Part shown: positions 879 through 9,342 of the stretch, piece by piece | Layout of the letters: every line of letters begins with the position of its first letter | Numbering within the stretch: position 1 is the first letter of the stretch | Origin: Bacilli bacterium | GTDB lineage: Bacteria; Bacillota_I; Bacilli_A; RF39; UBA660 | Length of the DNA stretch: 42,316 nt | Reading direction: 5' to 3' | NCBI GenBank assembly: GCA_022795155.1 | Contig: JAAWGF010000013.1 | Span: 1-42,316 of the forward strand | Notes under the pieces: model-generated | What the model was told of the DNA's origin: nothing | Database searches by the model: none | Seen by the model: only the letters and a program-made list of their open reading frames with translations | Program-made: the position numbers and the translations under genes

Positions 879-902
879 ATAATAAAAGAATGGAGCATGG
901 TT

Positions 903-2183
903 ATGGTAACAGGTTTTAGAATTTCTAGTAAAAAAAGTATGTCTTTAAAAAATAAGTTAGAAGAATATTTGAATCCTGAGTATGTTTATATACCGCTAGT
1001 TAGTGGTTTTGACACGAATATTAGTGTTTTTGTTAAAAAAAACGATTATGTTTATAAAGAAACGATGCTAGGTAAAAGACAAGGAAATTTTCCAATTCCT
1101 CTTTTATCGAGTGTGAGTGGTACTGTAGTTGGTTTTGAAGAAAAATATTATTTAAATGGTGAAAAAATAAAATGTGTTGTTATTCAAAATGATTTTAAAG
1201 AATTAGTAGAAAAAAAGGAACCAGTATGTGATGATATTACCAAAATTAGTAAAGATAAATTTCTAGATATTTTAAAAAGTAATGCGATTGTTGGTTTAGG
1301 TGGGGCTAATTTTCCAACTTTTGCTAAATATGATACAGATAAACAAATTAAAACTTTAATTGTAAATGCAGTAGAATGTGAACCTTATATTACGGCTGAT
1401 TATATGCTTGTTATAGATCATGCTGAAGAAATTTTAGAAGGTGTAAACGCTATTTTAAAAATCAATAATATTAGTGAAGCTTATATCACTATTAAGAAAA
1501 CAAATACGAAAATGATTAATGCCTTTAATAAATATATTGGTACATTTCCTAATATTAAAATTTATTTAATGCCTAATCTTTATCCAATGGGATGGGAAAA
1601 AAGTATTGTCAAGGAAGTGTTAAAAAAATCTTATGAGCGATTACCAATTGAGGTAAATGCAGTTGTTAACAATGTTTCGACAATTTATGCAATTTATGAG
1701 AGTTTAAAATATAATAAACCCTTGATTTCTAGAATTGTTACTTTTACTGGGGAAGGATTAGAAAAGCCAATTAATATTAAGGTAAAATTTGGGACATTAG
1801 CCAGTGAAGTTATTAAAAAGTATTGTAAGTATAAAAATACTAATGATTTATTATTTATCGCTGGTGGACCAATGATGGGAAACAGTATGAAATGTGATGA
1901 TTTAGTTATTACACCAAATTTAAATTGTGTCTTAGTTTTACCAAAATTGAAGCAAGATGAAGCTATTGAATGTTTAAGATGTGGACTTTGTGTTAAATAT
2001 TGTCCAGCTAAATTAGCGCCGGTTTTAATTAAAAATGATTGTGAAAATCCTGAATCTTTAAAAAAATATGAAGTAAACCGTTGCATTGATTGTGGCCTAT
2101 GTACTTATGTTTGTCCATCAAAAATAAGAGTTAGAGATTATGTTCAAAAGGCTAAAGATACAATTAGGAGGGAGAATAAATAA
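903..2183 (+). CDS. rnfC: Rnf electron transport complex subunit C
   Basis: RnfC is the peripheral subunit that passes electrons between NAD(H) and the membrane part of the ferredoxin:NAD+ oxidoreductase. The glycine-rich 'VGLGGANFPTF' segment (residues about 130-140) matches the nucleotide/flavin-binding region shared with NuoF and RnfC. Two 4Fe-4S motifs follow, CLRCGLCVKYCP (about 357) and CIDCGLCTYVCP (about 394). An in-frame ATG at 897 is only 1 base behind the GGAG at 892-895. The ATG at 903 is spaced 7 bases from it and is preferred, giving 426 aa, close to the usual length. The stop overlaps the rnfD start by one base (TAATG), so the two are translationally coupled. First gene of the operon. 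Confidence 0.93.
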   Translation: MVTGFRISSKKSMSLKNKLEEYLNPEYVYIPLVSGFDTNISVFVKKNDYVYKETMLGKRQGNFPIPLLSSVSGTVVGFEEKYYLNGEKIKCVVIQNDFKELVEKKEPVCDDITKISKDKFLDILKSNAIVGLGGANFPTFAKYDTDKQIKTLIVNAVECEPYITADYMLVIDHAEEILEGVNAILKINNISEAYITIKKTNTKMINAFNKYIGTFPNIKIYLMPNLYPMGWEKSIVKEVLKKSYERLPIEVNAVVNNVSTIYAIYESLKYNKPLISRIVTFTGEGLEKPINIKVKFGTLASEVIKKYCKYKNTNDLLFIAGGPMMGNSMKCDDLVITPNLNCVLVLPKLKQDEAIECLRCGLCVKYCPAKLAPVLIKNDCENPESLKKYEVNRCIDCGLCTYVCPSKIRVRDYVQKAKDTIRRENK

Positions 2184-3955
2184 TGAAAACATTCGAAACA
2201 TCAAAAGGTCCATTTTTAAATTCCAAAAATAAAACATCAAAGATGATGCTTCATTTATTTATTGCTCTTTTACCAATTATTATTTTTGCTTTTTATAAAA
2301 ATGGTGTTATTCCATATCGAGCTGGTTTAACGGATATAAAGGGTTTATTATTACCACTTATGGTTATTATACTACCTGCCTTAACTTCTTTTGCAACAGA
2401 AATGTTATATGCAAGTATTTTTTTAAAAACGGATGCGTTAAAATATGTTAAAAATTCTTTTAGTTTTTACCCTGGCTTATTTTTAGGACTTATTATGCCA
2501 CTAAATACGCCATTTTCGATGCTCATTTTAGGAGCATTTATTGCAACCCTTGTGGGTAAACTGTTATTTGGCGGATTTGGAAACAATATTTTTAATCCAG
2601 CCTTAGTTGGAAGAATATTTATAATAACAGCTTATGCGATTACTTTTGGAAAATATGCTTATCATAATAGTTATGAATTAGATACAATTGCTTCATCAAC
2701 GCCACTTACGAATGCCAGTATAGTTGAGGGAATTGGTAGTTATAATGAATTAGTTAGGCCTTATGGGAGTTTGATGAATTTTTTTGTTGGGACAGTTCCC
2801 GGAGCGGTTGGTGAAACTAGCGCTTTACTTTGTATAATAGCTTTTATTTATTTAACTGTAACAAAAACAATCAAATGGCGAATTCCTGTTTTTTATGTTG
2901 GAACTGTTTTCATAATGGCTTTTATTATTGGGCTTTTTAATGACTTAGAACGTACTTATTCCTTATTTCAGATATTAAGCGGTGGTTTAATGTTTGGTGC
3001 TGTTTTTATGGCAACTGATCCTGTTACTAGCCCAACTACTTATGTTGGTCAAGCTTTATATGGAATTTCACTCGGAATTCTTACGATTGTATTTAGACAC
3101 TTAACCCCTTATCCAGAAGGTGTCCTAACAAGTATTTTAACTATGAATATGTTAGTATTTATAATTGATAAAATCGGTGTTAAATCACGTTTTGAACTAA
3201 AAAAATCAATACCATATTTTAGTACCCTAATTGTTATTCTTTTAGCTATTAGTTGTTATATCGGTTTTAGTTTTCATAAGAGTAATAATACAGAAATTGA
3301 TCCAAATTTTGAAATTTATTCTAAAGAAGTAACAGGTAATACTATAACTTATATGGTTGGACAAAAAGGTTACAGTAGTACATTAAAGGCTAAGATTGTT
3401 ATTAAAGATGATAATGTTATTTCTTATGAAGTCTTAGAACAAAATGATAGTTATTATTCAAAAATTACGCAAGCAAACTATTTAAATACATTAATTGAAA
3501 ATCAAACTAAACTTAATGAAGTTGATACAATTGCGGGCGTAACATTTACATCAAATGGTTTAAAGAAAATGCTCAATTATACGTTAGAAGATTATAAAGA
3601 AAATGGTAATGAAGAAATAAAAGGTGAGGTTGTTATTGATAAAGATTTTGAAGTTTTAGAACACAATATAAATGGAAATGTGCATGAATATATTGTTTCT
3701 AAAAAAGGCTTTTCTAGCAAATTAAAATTAAATATTACAATTATTGACAATATCATAACGAATGTGGTTGTTTTAGAACAAAATGATAGTTATTATAACA
3801 AAATTTTAGAGAGTGATTATATTAATTATTTAATTAATAATCAAATCAAGTTAGAAAATGTTGATACAGTTGCTGGAGCAACAATTACATCTTCATCTTT
3901 AAAACAGGCATTAATTGAAACTTTAAAAATACATATGGGTGATACTAATGGGTAA
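2183..3955 (+). CDS. rnfD: RnfD fused to a tandem RnfG-like FMN-binding region
   Basis: Residues about 1-340 are a multi-pass RnfD: the 'SSTPL' block near residue 172 corresponds to the covalent-FMN SGATPL site with Thr kept, and 'VPGAVGETSALL' is a family hallmark. A further membrane helix at about 345-365 (YFSTLIVILLAISCYIGF) is followed by two repeats of about 100 residues. Each repeat contains 'VLEQNDSYY' and an RnfG-type flavin motif, AGVTFTS (about 450) and AGATITS (about 564). RnfG is normally a separate protein with one such domain; here it appears fused, with its own helix, and duplicated. The second repeat has the better motif, while the first has Val for Ala. Total 590 aa against roughly 310-350 for a normal RnfD. 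Covalent flavin would need ApbE, which is not in the window. Confidence 0.88.
   Translation: MKTFETSKGPFLNSKNKTSKMMLHLFIALLPIIIFAFYKNGVIPYRAGLTDIKGLLLPLMVIILPALTSFATEMLYASIFLKTDALKYVKNSFSFYPGLFLGLIMPLNTPFSMLILGAFIATLVGKLLFGGFGNNIFNPALVGRIFIITAYAITFGKYAYHNSYELDTIASSTPLTNASIVEGIGSYNELVRPYGSLMNFFVGTVPGAVGETSALLCIIAFIYLTVTKTIKWRIPVFYVGTVFIMAFIIGLFNDLERTYSLFQILSGGLMFGAVFMATDPVTSPTTYVGQALYGISLGILTIVFRHLTPYPEGVLTSILTMNMLVFIIDKIGVKSRFELKKSIPYFSTLIVILLAISCYIGFSFHKSNNTEIDPNFEIYSKEVTGNTITYMVGQKGYSSTLKAKIVIKDDNVISYEVLEQNDSYYSKITQANYLNTLIENQTKLNEVDTIAGVTFTSNGLKKMLNYTLEDYKENGNEEIKGEVVIDKDFEVLEHNINGNVHEYIVSKKGFSSKLKLNITIIDNIITNVVVLEQNDSYYNKILESDYINYLINNQIKLENVDTVAGATITSSSLKQALIETLKIHMGDTNG
3432..3800 (+). 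repeat. Direct repeat encoding the duplicated FMN-domain motif
   Basis: The stretch coding for 'VLEQNDSYY' occurs near 3432-3462 and again near 3768-3800 in the same frame, with a core of more than 20 identical bases. It marks the duplication of the RnfG-like domain within the rnfD fusion. Confidence 0.75.
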
Positions 3956-4040
3956 AAAAATAAAGTCTGTTTTAGCATTAACTTTAACCGCATTAGTTTG
4001 TTCAACGTTAATTTATTTAGTATTTAGGGGGACAAATTAA
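3948..4040 (+). CDS. 30-aa single-helix membrane peptide in the rnf operon
   Basis: The ATG at 3948 overlaps the last 8 bases of the rnfD fusion gene and the stop is TAA at 4038-4040, which overlaps the next gene's ATG (TAATG). The product begins MGKKIKS and is then a continuous hydrophobic helix ending LVFRGTN. Overlaps at both ends and the charge pattern (positive N-terminus, one helix) support a real translated gene. It sits where rnfG usually starts and looks like the membrane anchor of RnfG without its domain. It could be a remnant left when the FMN domains moved onto RnfD, or a small accessory subunit. No homologue recognised. Confidence 0.6.
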   Translation: MGKKIKSVLALTLTALVCSTLIYLVFRGTN

Positions 4041-4870
4041 TGGAAGTAAGCTTTCAAATTGATGATTTTTTAAGTGTTAGTAAAGAAATTGGTTCTTTAG
4101 ATGATGCTAGTTTAAAAGAATATGTAATAAGTAGGGTTTTATGGTTAGAAAAAAGAACAAAGGAACAGAAACTAGGTATAACAGATGATAATAGAATTTT
4201 ATCTATTTATAAAGGTTATATTTCCTCTAATAGCCCAATAAAATCTTCTAAAAGTGCCGAAGCATTTTATTTAGATAATATAAATATTTATTATGATTTT
4301 ATCAAGCAATATAAGGAACACATTAATGAAGATAATCTTATTAAGATGTTTCAAGATTTACAAAATTATTTTACTGATACTTTTGGACTTACAGGTAGTC
4401 AAAAAAAGCGTAATGAAGTTTATTGTGAATACTCATCCGAATTACAAAATAAATTGTTTGATGTTGAAGGATTATCTGTTCATAAACTAACCGAAAAAGG
4501 TGCTGCTATGTGTTTGGAAAGATCAGCAATTTTACAAAATATTCTAAGCTTGTTAGGATTAAATAGTTATTTTATTTATGGTAAATTAGAAAAATTTGCT
4601 ATTGATAATGTGACATCAGAATTACATTCTTATAATATCGTTAAAATTACTAGCGATGATTATTTAATTTATGATATTTCTAATCCTTTATCGCTTGAAT
4701 ATGATAATACTAAATATTATTTTCCAGCTATTAATGTCATAGGAGAAGGACAACTTAATGATTTGATTGATGGTTGTAATTATGTTTTTGATAATAAGCA
4801 AGTTGAAAATTTATTTGATTGTAAAGCAACTGTTTTAAACGAAATAAAAAGGATTTATACAATTGGTTAG
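4040..4870 (+). CDS. Transglutaminase-like protein inside the rnf operon
   Basis: 276 aa, no signal peptide or membrane helix, so probably cytoplasmic. The C-terminal half has a transglutaminase-like pattern: 'AAMCLERSAILQNILSLLG' (Cys158), 'ELHSYNIVKI' (His196) and 'LIYDISNP' (Asp212). Spacings of 38 and 16 residues are right for a Cys-His-Asp triad in this fold. The N-terminal half is helical and unrecognised. It begins with the TAATG overlap behind a GGGGGA ribosome-binding site and ends 9 bases before rnfE, so it is co-translated with Rnf subunits. The substrate is unknown. Processing or modification of an Rnf subunit is a guess from context, and it could also be an unrelated passenger. 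Confidence 0.6.
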   Translation: MEVSFQIDDFLSVSKEIGSLDDASLKEYVISRVLWLEKRTKEQKLGITDDNRILSIYKGYISSNSPIKSSKSAEAFYLDNINIYYDFIKQYKEHINEDNLIKMFQDLQNYFTDTFGLTGSQKKRNEVYCEYSSELQNKLFDVEGLSVHKLTEKGAAMCLERSAILQNILSLLGLNSYFIYGKLEKFAIDNVTSELHSYNIVKITSDDYLIYDISNPLSLEYDNTKYYFPAINVIGEGQLNDLIDGCNYVFDNKQVENLFDCKATVLNEIKRIYTIG

Positions 4871-4879
4871 GAGGGTACT

Positions 4880-5518
4880 ATGAAACAAATATTTAAGACA
4901 ATGGTTAATGAAAATCCATTATTTGTTTTAATGCTTGGACTTTGTCCAGCTTTAGCTGTAACAACAAATTTTGAAAGTGCTTATATGATGGGACTATGCT
5001 TTTTAATAGTTGTAGTTGTTTCCAATGTCATCATAAGTGTTATAAAAAAATTGATTCCTGATAATGTTAGGATACCTGTCTACATTTTAATTATTGGGAC
5101 GGTTGTTACAATATTAGAGATATTATTAAGTAAATATTTACCTAAATTATCAGAACAGTTAGGTGTTTACTTGTCATTAATTGTTGTTAACTGTGTTGTT
5201 TTAGGACGGGCTTTATCTGTAGCTAGTAAAAAAGATATTGCTTACACTTTAAAAGATAGTATTGGAATTGGCCTTGGATTTACTATTTCTTTAATGCTGA
5301 TTGGAGCTATTAGAGAAATATTAGGTACTAATACAATTACTTTTATGAGTAGTTTAAGTGAATTAACTGGTTATCGAGCTGTTTATAAGGTTTATCCTGC
5401 TATGAGCTTGTTGCCAAATCCGATTTTTTCATCAGGGGCTGGAGCTTTTCTAGTATTAGGTTTTTTAGTGGCCTTATTTAATGCTTTTAAAAAGGAGGAA
5501 AACCATGAATCTGATTAG
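4880..5518 (+). CDS. rnfE: Rnf electron transport complex subunit E
   Basis: RnfE is an integral membrane subunit that, with RnfA, holds a 2Fe-2S cluster within the bilayer in the Rnf/Nqr family. 212 aa with about six helices. 'NPLFVLMLGLCPALAVT' and 'VVNCVVLGRA' carry the two conserved half-channel cysteines. The start is preceded by AGGAGGG that overlaps the upstream stop. The 3' end overlaps rnfA by 14 bases. Confidence 0.95.
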   Translation: MKQIFKTMVNENPLFVLMLGLCPALAVTTNFESAYMMGLCFLIVVVVSNVIISVIKKLIPDNVRIPVYILIIGTVVTILEILLSKYLPKLSEQLGVYLSLIVVNCVVLGRALSVASKKDIAYTLKDSIGIGLGFTISLMLIGAIREILGTNTITFMSSLSELTGYRAVYKVYPAMSLLPNPIFSSGAGAFLVLGFLVALFNAFKKEENHESD

Positions 5519-6074
5519 TTTATTTATCGTAAGTTTGCTAACGGAAAATATTGTTTTAACAAAATTTTTAGGTATGTGTCCTTTTTTTGGAACATCAAAA
5601 GCTGAAAAGAATGCCTTATCGATGGGATTATCAGTAATGATAGTGGTTGTTTTATCTAGTTTAATTACTTTTTTCATTAATAAATATATTTTAATTCCAA
5701 CCGATACGGTTTATTTAAGAACGATTATCTTTATTTTAGTTATTGCCGCAATTGTTCAAATTGTCGAGATTATTTTAAAAAAATATTATTCAATTATTTA
5801 TAAGAATTTAGGATTATATTTACCACTTATTACAACTAATTGTGCAGTATTAGGAACCGTTTTACTTGCTTCTAATAATAATTATAATTTAATAGAAACT
5901 CTAGTTTTTAGCATTGGTAGTAGTTTAGGTTTTACTTTAGTTATTTATATTTTTTCGAGTATTCGTGAAAGATTAGAACATTGTAATATTCCTAAAAATT
6001 TTAAAGGTTATCCGATTGCGTTAATTACGGCATCTATTATGGCACTTGTATTTGCTCGTTTTGTAGGTGTATAA
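5505..6074 (+). CDS. rnfA: Rnf electron transport complex subunit A
   Basis: Membrane subunit paralogous to RnfE, 189 aa, about six helices. 'TENIVLTKFLGMCPFFGTS' and 'LITTNCAVLGT' contain the two cysteines expected to ligate the shared 2Fe-2S cluster. An ATG at 5481 is in frame, but the strong AAGGAGG at 5492-5498 lies between it and the ATG at 5505, which is therefore chosen and matches the usual N-terminus MNLISLF. Overlaps rnfE by 14 bases and abuts the Cys-rich peptide gene directly. Confidence 0.95.
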   Translation: MNLISLFIVSLLTENIVLTKFLGMCPFFGTSKAEKNALSMGLSVMIVVVLSSLITFFINKYILIPTDTVYLRTIIFILVIAAIVQIVEIILKKYYSIIYKNLGLYLPLITTNCAVLGTVLLASNNNYNLIETLVFSIGSSLGFTLVIYIFSSIRERLEHCNIPKNFKGYPIALITASIMALVFARFVGV

Positions 6075-6185
6075 ATGGCTTATTTAATTTTGATTATCTT
6101 AATTATTTTAAATATTATTCTATATAGACTTAATAAATGTAAGAGCAATTGCGCTACTTGTTTAAAATGTAAGGGTGATAAATAA
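6075..6185 (+). CDS. 36-aa Cys-rich single-helix membrane peptide in the rnf operon
   Basis: The ATG at 6075 follows the rnfA stop with no gap and the stop TAA (6183-6185) overlaps the rnfB ATG. Residues 3-17 form one membrane helix. The tail 'CKSNCATCLKC' has four cysteines (22, 26, 29, 32) in the pattern C-x3-C-x2-C-x2-C. Small one-helix, four-cysteine proteins are known as NqrM, which matures the iron site of the homologous Na+-NQR, and as FeoB-associated Cys-rich proteins. By analogy this one may deliver iron or a cluster to RnfA/RnfE, or it may be an electron-carrying subunit. The function is inference, while the ORF is well supported by its exact packing. Confidence 0.65.
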   Translation: MAYLILIILIILNIILYRLNKCKSNCATCLKCKGDK

Positions 6186-6445
6186 TGATTGGTATTTTAA
6201 TTGTAACTTTACTGGCGTTTTTTCTTAGTCTTATTATTGTTATTTTAGATTCTAAACTACAAAATAAAAGAGAAGGAAAGATTTTAGAATTATTACCTGG
6301 CTACAATTGTGGAGCCTGTGGTTTTGGAAGTTGTAGTGGCATGGCTAAAAAGATATGTGAAGATATTAACGCTTATAAAAAATGTAAGCCACTTAAGGGT
6401 GAGAATTTAGAAAAGATGCAAGCCTATATTAATAGTTTAAAATAA
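6185..6445 (+). CDS. rnfB: Minimal RnfB: membrane helix plus one Fe-S domain
   Basis: RnfB normally couples ferredoxin oxidation to the membrane subunits and has an N-terminal helix, a Fe4S domain and further ferredoxin modules (about 180-330 aa). This one has 86 aa: helix at 4-21, then 'LPGYNCGACGFGSCSGMA' with Cys42, Cys45, Cys50 and Cys67 in the C-x2-C-x4-C-x16-C pattern of the Fe4S domain. There is no CxxCxxCxxxC ferredoxin motif, and a stop plus terminator follow at once, so this is not an assembly of two pieces. Electrons from ferredoxin must enter another way, perhaps directly or through a separate carrier. Last gene of the rnf operon. Confidence 0.85.
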   Translation: MIGILIVTLLAFFLSLIIVILDSKLQNKREGKILELLPGYNCGACGFGSCSGMAKKICEDINAYKKCKPLKGENLEKMQAYINSLK

Positions 6446-6446
6446 T

Positions 6447-6475
6447 AAAATTTATCAAATTGATAAATTTTTTTG
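6447..6475 (+). terminator. Intrinsic terminator of the rnf operon
   Basis: Inverted repeat 6447-6458 with 6460-6471 followed by a T run, 2 bases after rnfB. Confidence 0.75.
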
Positions 6476-6495
6476 TTGTTATTTCTTTAAAGATA

Positions 6496-6523
6496 TTGTA
6501 AAATTTTTAATAAATAGTATAAT
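6496..6523 (+). promoter_or_regulatory. SigA-type promoter of gmk
   Basis: TTGTAA at 6496-6501 and TATAAT at 6518-6523 with a 16-bp spacer, 26 bases before the gmk ATG and just after the rnf terminator. Confidence 0.65.
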
Positions 6524-6549
6524 GGTAATAATTAAAAAGGGGAAATAAT

Positions 6550-7215
6550 ATGAGTTTAGTAAAAAAGAATAAGAAAGGTTCATTAATTATTATATCTGGA
6601 ACTACTTGTGCAGGAAAGGGGACAGTAATTAAAGAGCTTTTAAAGAATAATGATAATTTAGTTTTATCAACATCTTATACTTCAAGAGAGATGCGTAAAG
6701 GTGATATTGTAGATGTTACATACCATTTTGTTAGTAAGAAGCAGTTTGAACAAAAAATAGCTAATGGTGATTTTTTAGAGTATGCATTAGTTCATGATTA
6801 CTATTATGGAACACCTAAAGCGGAAATTGAGCAACAACTAAACAGTGGTAAAGATGTTATTTTAGAAATTGAGGTACAAGGTGCTAAAATTATTAAGGAA
6901 AAGTTTCCCGAAACGATTTTAATTTTTGTTTTAGCGCCTTCAATGCAAGAATTAAAAAGACGGATTATTGCTAGAGGTAGTGAAACAAAAACGCAAATTA
7001 TTCGGAGATTTAAAACGGCTTATCAGGAATTAAACGAGATATCAAAATATAATTATGTAGTTATTAATAATGATGTTATTGACGCGGTTAAAAAAATTGA
7101 AGCTATTTTGATTTCGGAAAAATGTCGTGTTGATAGAATTGAAGAACTTGATATTGAAAATCAGGAAGAGTTTATGCATGAGCTATTGATGGATAGTCAT
7201 TTAGATAGTAAGTAA
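6550..7215 (+). CDS. gmk: Guanylate kinase
   Basis: Phosphorylates GMP to GDP with ATP. 221 aa, slightly longer than usual at both ends. P-loop 'SGTTCAGKG' at residues 16-24 (most homologues have SGPSGVGKG), GMP-binding 'TSREMRKGD' near 44-52 and 'YYGTPKAEIE', lid region 'IIARGSETKTQIIRRF'. The P-loop variant keeps the essential GK-G. Its start has GGGGAA 6-8 bases upstream. It has its own promoter; trhP1 follows with a separate promoter. Confidence 0.93.
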   Translation: MSLVKKNKKGSLIIISGTTCAGKGTVIKELLKNNDNLVLSTSYTSREMRKGDIVDVTYHFVSKKQFEQKIANGDFLEYALVHDYYYGTPKAEIEQQLNSGKDVILEIEVQGAKIIKEKFPETILIFVLAPSMQELKRRIIARGSETKTQIIRRFKTAYQELNEISKYNYVVINNDVIDAVKKIEAILISEKCRVDRIEELDIENQEEFMHELLMDSHLDSK

Positions 7216-7268: not shown

Positions 7269-8153
7269 ATGAGTAAAAAGATTATAATCGCTAAGTCTAC
7301 GAGACAAATAAATAATTTGCTTAATATATGTGATGGATTTATAATTGGTATAAAAGATTTGAGTGTTAATTTACCATGTTATTTTACTATGGAAGAAGCA
7401 AAAAAAATTATAACTCTATGTTTAGAAAATGAAAAAGAAATTTTTGTTAGTCTAAATAGAAATATGCATAATGACCAATTATCTGAATTGACTACTATTT
7501 TAAAGGAATTATCTAATTTACAAATCACTGGTTTAATTTTTTATGATATTGCGATTATTAATTTAAATCAAGAATTAGGTTTAAATTTAAAATTGATTTG
7601 GAATCAAGAGCATTTGGCTACTAATTATTGTACGATTAATTATTGGCATAAAAAAGGCGTATATGCTAGTTATTTATCTAGTGAATTAACAATTGATGAA
7701 ATTTTTTTTATAAGGAAAAAAACAAGCTGTTTACTTATGATGAATGTATTTGGATTTATACCTATGTTTACTTCTAAAAGGCCACTTGTTAAAAATTATT
7801 TAGATAAATTTTCTTTAAATGATAAATCCAAAATAAATTATTTAGAAAAAGAAGGTAATATTTATCCTATTATAAGTGAAGATGTTACAACAGTTTATTC
7901 TAGTAAAATATTAAATTTATTAATGGAATTTTTTAATTTATCTAAAGTAGGAATAGATTATTTCGTATTTAATAGTTTTAACATAAATGAAGATGTTTTT
8001 AAAGAAATCATAGAACTTTTTAATGAGTCTAATGGTCTTACTGATAATTGCTTATTTGAGAGGGTAAATATGCTATTAAATTATAATATCGATACAGGTT
8101 TTTTATATAAAGATACAGTTTATAAGGTGAAAAAAAATGGACAAAAAGGATAA
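7269..8153 (+). CDS. trhP1: U32-family tRNA hydroxylation protein 1 (TrhP1/YrrN-like)
   Basis: 294 aa, a peptidase-U32-family protein without the Cys-rich signature of its downstream partner. The segments 'CDGFIIGIKDLSV', 'EIFVSLNRNMHN' and 'LKLIWNQEHLATNY' follow the TIM-barrel layout of the short partner. In Bacillus subtilis the pair YrrN/YrrO (TrhP1/TrhP2) is needed for prephenate-dependent 5-hydroxyuridine at tRNA position 34. The 17-base overlap with the longer U32 gene and the nearby greA match the known yrrN-yrrO-udk-greA order. The assignment rests mostly on this context. Confidence 0.72.
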   Translation: MSKKIIIAKSTRQINNLLNICDGFIIGIKDLSVNLPCYFTMEEAKKIITLCLENEKEIFVSLNRNMHNDQLSELTTILKELSNLQITGLIFYDIAIINLNQELGLNLKLIWNQEHLATNYCTINYWHKKGVYASYLSSELTIDEIFFIRKKTSCLLMMNVFGFIPMFTSKRPLVKNYLDKFSLNDKSKINYLEKEGNIYPIISEDVTTVYSSKILNLLMEFFNLSKVGIDYFVFNSFNINEDVFKEIIELFNESNGLTDNCLFERVNMLLNYNIDTGFLYKDTVYKVKKNGQKG

Positions 8154-9342
8154 ACCAGAATTATTAGCGCCTGCAGGTGATTTAGAACGACTTAAAATTG
8201 CTCTTTTATATGGAGCTGATGCAGTTTATGTCGGTGGAGATTTATTTAGCCTTAGGGCTAATGCGATAAATTTTTCTTTAGAAGAATTAGAAGAAGCTGT
8301 ATTATTTACTCATAGTCTTTCAAAAAAATTATATGTTACTGTAAATATTGCATTACATAATAAAGAAGCGGATAAAATAATTAATTATTTAGAAGCCCTA
8401 GATAAAATTGGTGTAGACGCTATTATCGTAAGCGATCCTTTTATTATCGATTTAGCTATTAAAAGAACGAAAATACCTGTTCATTTGTCGACACAACAGT
8501 CAACTTTAAATTATGAGGCAATCAAGTTTTTTAAGCGTGAAGGCGTTTCACGTATTGTTTTAGCCCGTGAGGTTAGTGCGTCTGATATTAAATTAATTAA
8601 AGAAAAGGTTGATATTGAATTAGAGTGTTTTGTTCATGGTGCAATGTGTGCATCTTATAGTGGTAGATGTGTTTTATCGAACTTTTTAACAGCTCGTGAT
8701 TCTAATCGTGGGGGTTGTAGCCAAATTTGTCGCTGGGATTTTAAATTATTAAATGAATTTCAAAATCAGTTGCAAGGTGAAAAAGATTTTACGTTTTGTA
8801 CTAAAGATTTATCACTTTTAAAACATATTCCTGATTTAATTGAATTAGGTGTAGATTCTTTTAAAATTGAAGGTAGAATGCGATCGACTTATTATATTGC
8901 GACTGTGGTCAATATTTATCGTCGTGTGATTGATGAATATTTTTATGATAAAAAAAATTATCACTATAATGTAGAATATGAGAAAATTTTAAGGAATTGT
9001 GCTAATAGAGATTCTGTCCCTCAATTTTTTGATGGTGATTGTGGTGTTGATTGCCAATATTATAATGGTCGAGTTGAAGTATCAAATCAAGATTTTTTAG
9101 GTATTGTTTTAAGTTATGATGAGCAAACTAAATTAGCAGTTATAGAACAACGCAATTATTTTAAACAGGGCGATATCGTTGAATTTTTTGGACCTAATAC
9201 TGAACCATTTTCTGTTAAAATTTCTGAAATATATGATGAGTTTAATAATATAATTGATATAGTAAGACATCCTAAACAAATTGTAAAACTAAAATTACAG
9301 ATAAAAGTTCGTCGAAATGATATGATGCGAATAAAAAAATAA
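8137..9342 (+). CDS. trhP2: U32-family tRNA hydroxylation protein 2 (TrhP2/YrrO-like)
   Basis: 401 aa. It opens with 'PELLAPAGDLERLKIALLYGADAVYVGG', typical of U32 proteins, and has the U32 signature 'ECFVHGAMCASYSGRCVLS' near 165-183, then 'NRGGCSQICRW', whose cysteines are metal/cluster ligands in this family. 'DSFKIEGRMRS' is also conserved. The C-terminal beta-barrel (about 325-395) is present. The old peptidase name is doubtful; with TrhP1 it acts in wobble-uridine hydroxylation. It overlaps trhP1 by 17 bases, with GGTGAA just upstream of the ATG. Confidence 0.88.
   Translation: MDKKDKPELLAPAGDLERLKIALLYGADAVYVGGDLFSLRANAINFSLEELEEAVLFTHSLSKKLYVTVNIALHNKEADKIINYLEALDKIGVDAIIVSDPFIIDLAIKRTKIPVHLSTQQSTLNYEAIKFFKREGVSRIVLAREVSASDIKLIKEKVDIELECFVHGAMCASYSGRCVLSNFLTARDSNRGGCSQICRWDFKLLNEFQNQLQGEKDFTFCTKDLSLLKHIPDLIELGVDSFKIEGRMRSTYYIATVVNIYRRVIDEYFYDKKNYHYNVEYEKILRNCANRDSVPQFFDGDCGVDCQYYNGRVEVSNQDFLGIVLSYDEQTKLAVIEQRNYFKQGDIVEFFGPNTEPFSVKISEIYDEFNNIIDIVRHPKQIVKLKLQIKVRRNDMMRIKK

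Follow-up and report, generated by a model that had tools for sequence, protein, structure and literature searches.

A 36-codon ORF located between rnfA and rnfB in the rnf operon of a Bacilli bacterium encodes, judging from its conservation, a genuine protein belonging to a small new family that we called RnfM. The members of this family have a membrane helix and an invariant three-cysteine core, depend in Bacillota on the presence of rnf, and never coexist in our sample with the two other carriers of such a cysteine core, the protein RseC and a cysteine tail at the end of RnfE. We consider it rather probable that RnfM is dedicated to Rnf and corresponds to one of three exchangeable carriers of a membrane-tethered Fe-S module needed by this complex, most likely for the installation of the RnfA-RnfE cluster.

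The rnf operon of the window and the RnfM family

The rnf operon of the window (the whole stretch of 42,316 nucleotides analyzed here) lies on the forward strand and runs from rnfC through an rnfD with two fused FMN-binding domains and two ORFs without an assigned role to rnfE, rnfA, the peptide ORF and a short rnfB. The rnfC gene (897..2183; TIGR01945, 1.5e-103) is followed by the rnfD fusion (2183..3955), which encodes a single protein of 590 residues matching PF03116 (4e-78) and, in two RnfG-like stretches, PF04205 (FMN_bind). The two halves of the [2Fe-2S] site are provided by RnfE (4880..5518; PF02508, 1.5e-53; PRK12405 RsxE, 4.5e-61), which ends in FKKEENHESD without any cysteine tail, and by RnfA (5505..6074; PF02508, 2.3e-52; TIGR01943, 1.8e-67). 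The short RnfB (6185..6445; PF04060, 1.7e-8) is a protein of 86 aa made of a helix and one Fe-S domain, without the dicluster ferredoxin part. RnfB proteins reduced in this way (about 85-130 residues) were general for the Rnf operons of Bacilli. The operon also includes an ORF of 276 residues (4040-4870) of unassigned function, with a weak match to a CEP76 peptidase-like sequence (E 0.15).

The peptide ORF extends from 6075 to 6185 on the forward strand, stop included, and its product of 36 aa, read directly from the sequence, is MAYLILIILIILNIILYRLNKCKSNCATCLKCKGDK. The stop codon of rnfA ends at 6074 and the ATG of the peptide is at 6075, leaving no gap between them, and the TAA of the peptide (6183-6185) shares one base with the ATG of rnfB (6185). 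A single membrane helix is predicted at residues 3-18 (6081..6128; hydropathy 3.17 over 15 residues); since the positive residues come after this helix, the C-terminus should be cytoplasmic according to the positive-inside rule. The four cysteines, at residues 22, 26, 29, and 32, form the motif C-x3-C-x2-C-x2-C. The length of the ORF, its packing against rnfA, its overlap with rnfB, the helix and the four cysteines had all been described in a first-pass annotation made from the sequence alone, and we confirmed each of them.

Sixty relatives were searched with RnfA and the rnfA-rnfB interval was read. A peptide was present in the same slot in the congeners G001 and G002 (63% and 44% identity, respectively), as well as in further relatives. 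We recovered a short form of 34-43 residues in the congeners and other family members of the window genome, and a long form of 52-82 residues in more distant Bacilli, whose consensus is a helix followed by NKKTPxPxGC...C-x2-C-x4-C. C26, C29, and C32 were invariant in the 14 short forms aligned (14/14), and the core C-x2-C-x(2-9)-C was present in 88/88 members (58 long in-operon, 15 short, and 15 unlinked), including one long member that was counted although its x9 spacing lies outside the scripted x2-x8 pattern. The second spacing ranged from x2 to x9, being mostly x4 or x2. In the window, this core is C26-x2-C29-x2-C32 (6150..6170). An extra upstream cysteine, found in 60 of the 88 members, is optional; its counterpart in the window is C22 (6138..6140), unconserved in alignments A1 and A4. 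The four-cysteine motif initially put forward thus stood for C26, C29, and C32 and not for C22, which gives its first spacing, and the proposed examination of related rnf operons came out in favor of both the ORF and its three cysteines. The sequence of the helix was not conserved; the cysteine core was the sole invariant part of these proteins and the rest was fast-evolving. One helix, the core C-x2-C-x(2-9)-C and occurrence only with rnf define RnfM, and the window peptide has all three.

A profile built from 14 short-form sequences (A4) detected about 30 genomes with E<1e-6 among 193 genomes of the window's family, followed by noise, and the 8 newly found loci that were inspected were all directly downstream of rnfA (8/8). 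The window peptide itself matched at G000:C21:6075-6182 (E=2.8e-14), with a model that includes its own sequence. Pfam contained nothing that matched the window peptide at E<=10, its only match in NCBIfam was below threshold, and searches of Pfam, NCBIfam, and PDB yielded no known family for RnfM. A word-based search of the open-access literature retrieved no peptide between rnfA and rnfB. In one genome (G143), a second RnfM-like ORF (L272) near metal-ATPase-like genes stops before the third cysteine and is perhaps decaying.

Distribution of RnfM, RseC and the RnfE cysteine tail

We ran a long-form profile (A3) on the same 392 Bacillota genomes as the RnfA search. RnfM was detected in 115 of them, all rnfA-positive, and in none of the 259 rnfA-less genomes (Fisher p about 1e-80, the genomes being taken as independent and their relatedness uncorrected). 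Eighteen rnfA-positive genomes had no A3 match. Four of these (G000, G033, G361, and G217) have the short form in the slot, G107 and G274 also have an in-slot peptide, and G272, G368, and G375 combine a long RnfB with a cysteine tail on RnfE. Seven others have only an NQR-like operon, as seen by inspection for three (G293, G145, and G276) and deduced from an equal match strength for four. Leaving out these seven genomes, G028 and G394, each of the 124 resolvable Bacillota Rnf genomes has one of these two carriers and not the other, namely RnfM in 121 and the RnfE tail in 3. In G028, RnfA (L024) is degenerate and lacks the LGxCP cysteine, the operon is truncated and the peptide is missing too.

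Eighteen short-RnfB operons have no peptide between rnfA and rnfB, and their genomes hold an unlinked copy instead. These unlinked copies occur in at least three different neighborhoods, with housekeeping-like genes by eye; no apbE or ferredoxin gene was seen beside them. Their presence in genomes in which the slot is empty indicates that RnfM is more than a spacer or a translational coupler. RnfM was absent from the NQR-like operons found in Bacilli, which combine RnfD/G/E/A with an NqrF-like gene; in those of L159-L168, NqrM, RseC, RnfM and the RnfE cysteine tail were all undetected, so that the known carriers would not account for [2Fe-2S] maturation there.

None of the 49 Rnf operons with a long RnfB has RnfM, which was found only with the short RnfB in our sample. 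In Rnf-bearing Clostridia, Bacteroidota, and Proteobacteria, A3 produced chance-level matches only (E>=0.007), and RseC (PF04246) was detected in none of the 51 Bacilli genomes tested. In many RnfE of Clostridia and a few of Bacilli, the protein terminates with a cytoplasmic tail that contains the core C-x2-C-x(2-5)-C, for instance ACGGKCSGCTSTTCIAK or KGCENCPMAKSCS in Clostridia; such tails were observed at C-termini among L034-L109 (e.g., L098, L109, and L035) and in L280, L281, and L152. Of the 67 non-Bacilli Rnf genomes whose RnfE could be read, 30 have RseC only, 33 the tail only, none has both and four have neither (L044, L070, L072, and L087); these counts come from the data that also suggested the tail rule. 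Most of the genomes are MAGs, and the matching of cysteine motifs was short and partly done by eye.

Three of the four exceptions (L070, L072, and L087) are MAGs without a clear carrier. In L044, a Thermoplasmatota MAG, the N-terminus of RnfE contains CVTCDNC (6315-7002), and in L072, a Clostridia MAG, RnfB ends in NCGACGLCK (7592-8480); both could be further carriers. The RnfE of L070 has two cysteines. All three features were seen post hoc and carry no weight in the carrier counts.

RnfM corresponded to one clade (SH-aLRT 99) of an RnfA tree with 167 rows, in which RseC changed at least seven times and the tail at least five times, L102 being entered as "none" (the RseC search was lacking for its genome) though a tail is present. 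The mutual exclusion has thus been upheld through several independent switches.

Proposed role in Rnf maturation and alternative readings

RnfA and RnfE jointly hold a mid-membrane [2Fe-2S] cluster, in a site opening to the cytoplasm, and insertion of the corresponding cluster in NQR seems to require NqrM; this 2025 review names a maturation protein for NQR only (PMC12174285). The single helix would anchor RnfM in the membrane, with the core C-x2-C-x(2-9)-C exposed to the cytoplasm. Such a tethered core, which in some genomes is incorporated into RnfE, has the features expected of a module for cluster delivery. The same module would be carried by the stand-alone RnfM in Bacilli with a short RnfB, by the RnfE tail in many Clostridia and few Bacilli, and by the N-terminal domain of RseC in other Clostridia, Bacteroidota, and Proteobacteria. 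It would transiently bind iron or an Fe-S cluster beside the membrane and hand it to the RnfA-RnfE heterodimer, as thought for NqrM with NqrD-NqrE. The functional equivalence of the carriers, the delivery to RnfA-RnfE and a role in assembly rather than in electron transfer are what we infer. Since RnfM and RseC have no detectable overall homology, the case for their equivalence is made by the mutual exclusion and a short cysteine motif.

The location of the tail on RnfE, which forms half of the [2Fe-2S] site, argues for delivery to RnfA-RnfE. A common module is suggested by the design shared by RnfM and RseC, with three conserved cysteines and an optional upstream one. The N-terminal domain of E. 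coli RseC is cytoplasmic and contains CX5CX2CX5C; its first cysteine (C20) is unconserved and dispensable, C26, C29, and C35 matter (changing two of these abolishes function), and the isolated domain reconstitutes an oxygen-sensitive Fe-S cluster (PMC11729352). In two-hybrid assays, E. coli RseC interacts with RsxB and RsxD, not with RsxA or RsxE (PMC11729352); these partners, as well as the carrier-less NQR-like systems of Bacilli, count against the proposed delivery mechanism.

RnfM could instead be a small subunit present in stoichiometric amounts, with an Fe-S cluster through which the electrons of ferredoxin would reach the short RnfB or RnfA-RnfE, replacing the missing ferredoxin part. 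The exclusive occurrence of RnfM with the short RnfB (0/49 long-RnfB operons) and the encoding of a membrane-anchored cysteine motif beside rnfB are consistent with such a relay. Nevertheless, three conserved cysteines are too few to stand in for the dicluster domain, organisms with a long RnfB have the same core in RseC or as an RnfE tail, Rnf structures were solved without RseC, and unlinked copies of RnfM are common; we thus regard an electron relay as unlikely. RseC was found in no PDB entry, including the Rnf structures 7zc6, 9eri, and 8ahx. Since these structures lack RseC although A. woodii has rseC (PMC9124969), RseC is probably not a permanent subunit, which argues for assembly over a stoichiometric relay.

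It had also been suggested in the first-pass annotation that the peptide might provide the cluster that the short RnfB lacks. Such a role is unlikely, as three cysteines cannot accommodate the two clusters that are absent and an identical type of core is present in organisms with full-length RnfB; it retains some probability because RnfM was found only with the short RnfB in the sample, a coincidence that is a persistent confound.

The published data on RseC also raise the possibility of a regulatory or sensory peptide, i.e., a membrane Fe-S or redox sensor tuning rnf expression or the stability of the complex. Without rseC, C. ljungdahlii cannot grow autotrophically, as is the case for the rnf deletion, and loss of rseC lowers rnf transcripts during autotrophy; the authors favored transcriptional regulation by RseC, noting that a role at the protein level is possible (PMC9124969). 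Their interpretation counts against the module role proposed here, and the oxygen sensitivity of the RseC cluster (PMC11729352) would also suit a sensor. We find this quite unlikely for RnfM, which has 34-82 residues and no DNA-binding part, whereas the genomes with a tail have the module built into RnfE; an exact one-of-three exclusion is also less expected for a regulator.

A structural or assembly peptide, whose helix would stabilize the RnfA-RnfE dimer and whose cysteines would serve for Zn binding or disulfides instead of Fe-S, would agree with the single helix, the strict dependence on Rnf and the fast evolution of the sequence outside the cysteines. Yet only the cysteine core is invariant, the helix sequence being unconserved, the genomes with a tail add cysteines and no extra helix, and the matching core of RseC reconstitutes an Fe-S cluster (PMC11729352), which makes this explanation very unlikely. 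Finally, a chance or non-coding ORF, conceivable for 36 codons in an AT-rich genome, has a negligible probability and is already refuted by conservation, with homologues in the same slot family-wide, an invariant core and unlinked copies kept only with rnf.

Delivery of iron or a cluster to RnfA-RnfE by RnfM is thus the reading that we prefer. The more general proposition, that every Rnf needs one tethered three-cysteine Fe-S module to install its intramembrane [2Fe-2S] cluster, packaged in at least three ways and with NqrM as its counterpart in Na+-NQR, could in our opinion equally well be right or wrong. Klask et al. listed seven Rnf acetogens without rseC, Blautia and Marvinbryantia among them, as a question to be answered (PMC9124969). 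For these, the one-of-three rule predicts an RnfE cysteine tail or another carrier. If the proposal is correct, RseC would be an Rnf maturation factor instead of a regulator. It would also assign a putative function to an unannotated family of mini-proteins spread across Bacilli, and provide a hint for the design of active Rnf in other hosts.

Comparison with NqrM, RseC and other cysteine-rich membrane proteins

NqrM (DUF539, PF04400) resembles RnfM in being small, with one N-terminal helix followed by four cysteines (C ... C-x(1-3)-C-x(3-5)-C), and it serves NqrD/NqrE, the homologues of RnfE/RnfA, to whose genes RnfM is linked. Some NqrM are close to RnfM in cysteine spacing, such as L212, GSCGGLGNKCSSCSKPC. 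In contrast, RnfM has N-x-x-T-x-x-P (in the long form) in place of GSCGG, and its first cysteine is optional. The GSCGG-type motif was absent from all RnfM and present in the collected NqrM, for the extraction of which it was also used. The window peptide did not match PF04400 at E<=10 and none of 14 Bacilli genomes had a match above the cut-off. Alignment with hhalign gave a probability of 71-88%, but 25 of 150 tail-shuffled (column-shuffled) controls equaled it, and we do not claim homology with NqrM. The parallel with NqrM drawn in the first-pass annotation is thus plausible as a similar role, given the single helix, the cytoplasmic cysteines and the strict dependence on Rnf, but is not supported as kinship. 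Since homology with NqrM is undemonstrated, the name RnfM refers to the likely role of the peptide and not to membership in NqrM.

The FeoB-associated cysteine-rich membrane protein (PF12669) is likewise short, with one helix and a cysteine cluster, and is encoded beside an iron-handling membrane protein. Unlike it, RnfM is tied to rnf in these genomes; the window peptide did not match PF12669, which for some other RnfM was the best Pfam match, though below threshold (at most 24.4 bits for a cut-off of 27). In some Bacilli (L244, L245, and L247), PF12669 matches lie inside long open frames (about 730 residues), which suggests a fusion to FeoB.

The RnfE tail of Clostridia, which comes after a membrane helix, has the core C-x2-C-x(2-5)-C on the cytoplasmic side and in many cases a further cysteine upstream (C-x3-C-x2-C-x4-C), and replaces both RnfM and RseC; it differs from RnfM in being part of RnfE, without a separate gene, and in occurring with a long RnfB. 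The N-terminal domain of RseC/RnfF (PF04246) is a membrane-tethered cytoplasmic three-cysteine core with an optional fourth cysteine upstream, a pattern also seen in RnfM apart from the spacing (C-x2-C-x5-C in RseC versus a second spacing of x2-x9, mostly x4 or x2, in RnfM). RseC has about 140-160 residues and two helices preceded by the cysteine domain, whereas RnfM has 34-82 residues and one helix followed by its core, with no Pfam match. With 36 residues, one helix and no match to PF04246, the window peptide is not a member of RseC. RseC, which is needed for Rnf/Rsx function, never occurred together with RnfM or the RnfE tail in our sample. RseC and the tail, neither of which figured in the first-pass annotation, are probably closer functional counterparts of RnfM than NqrM is.
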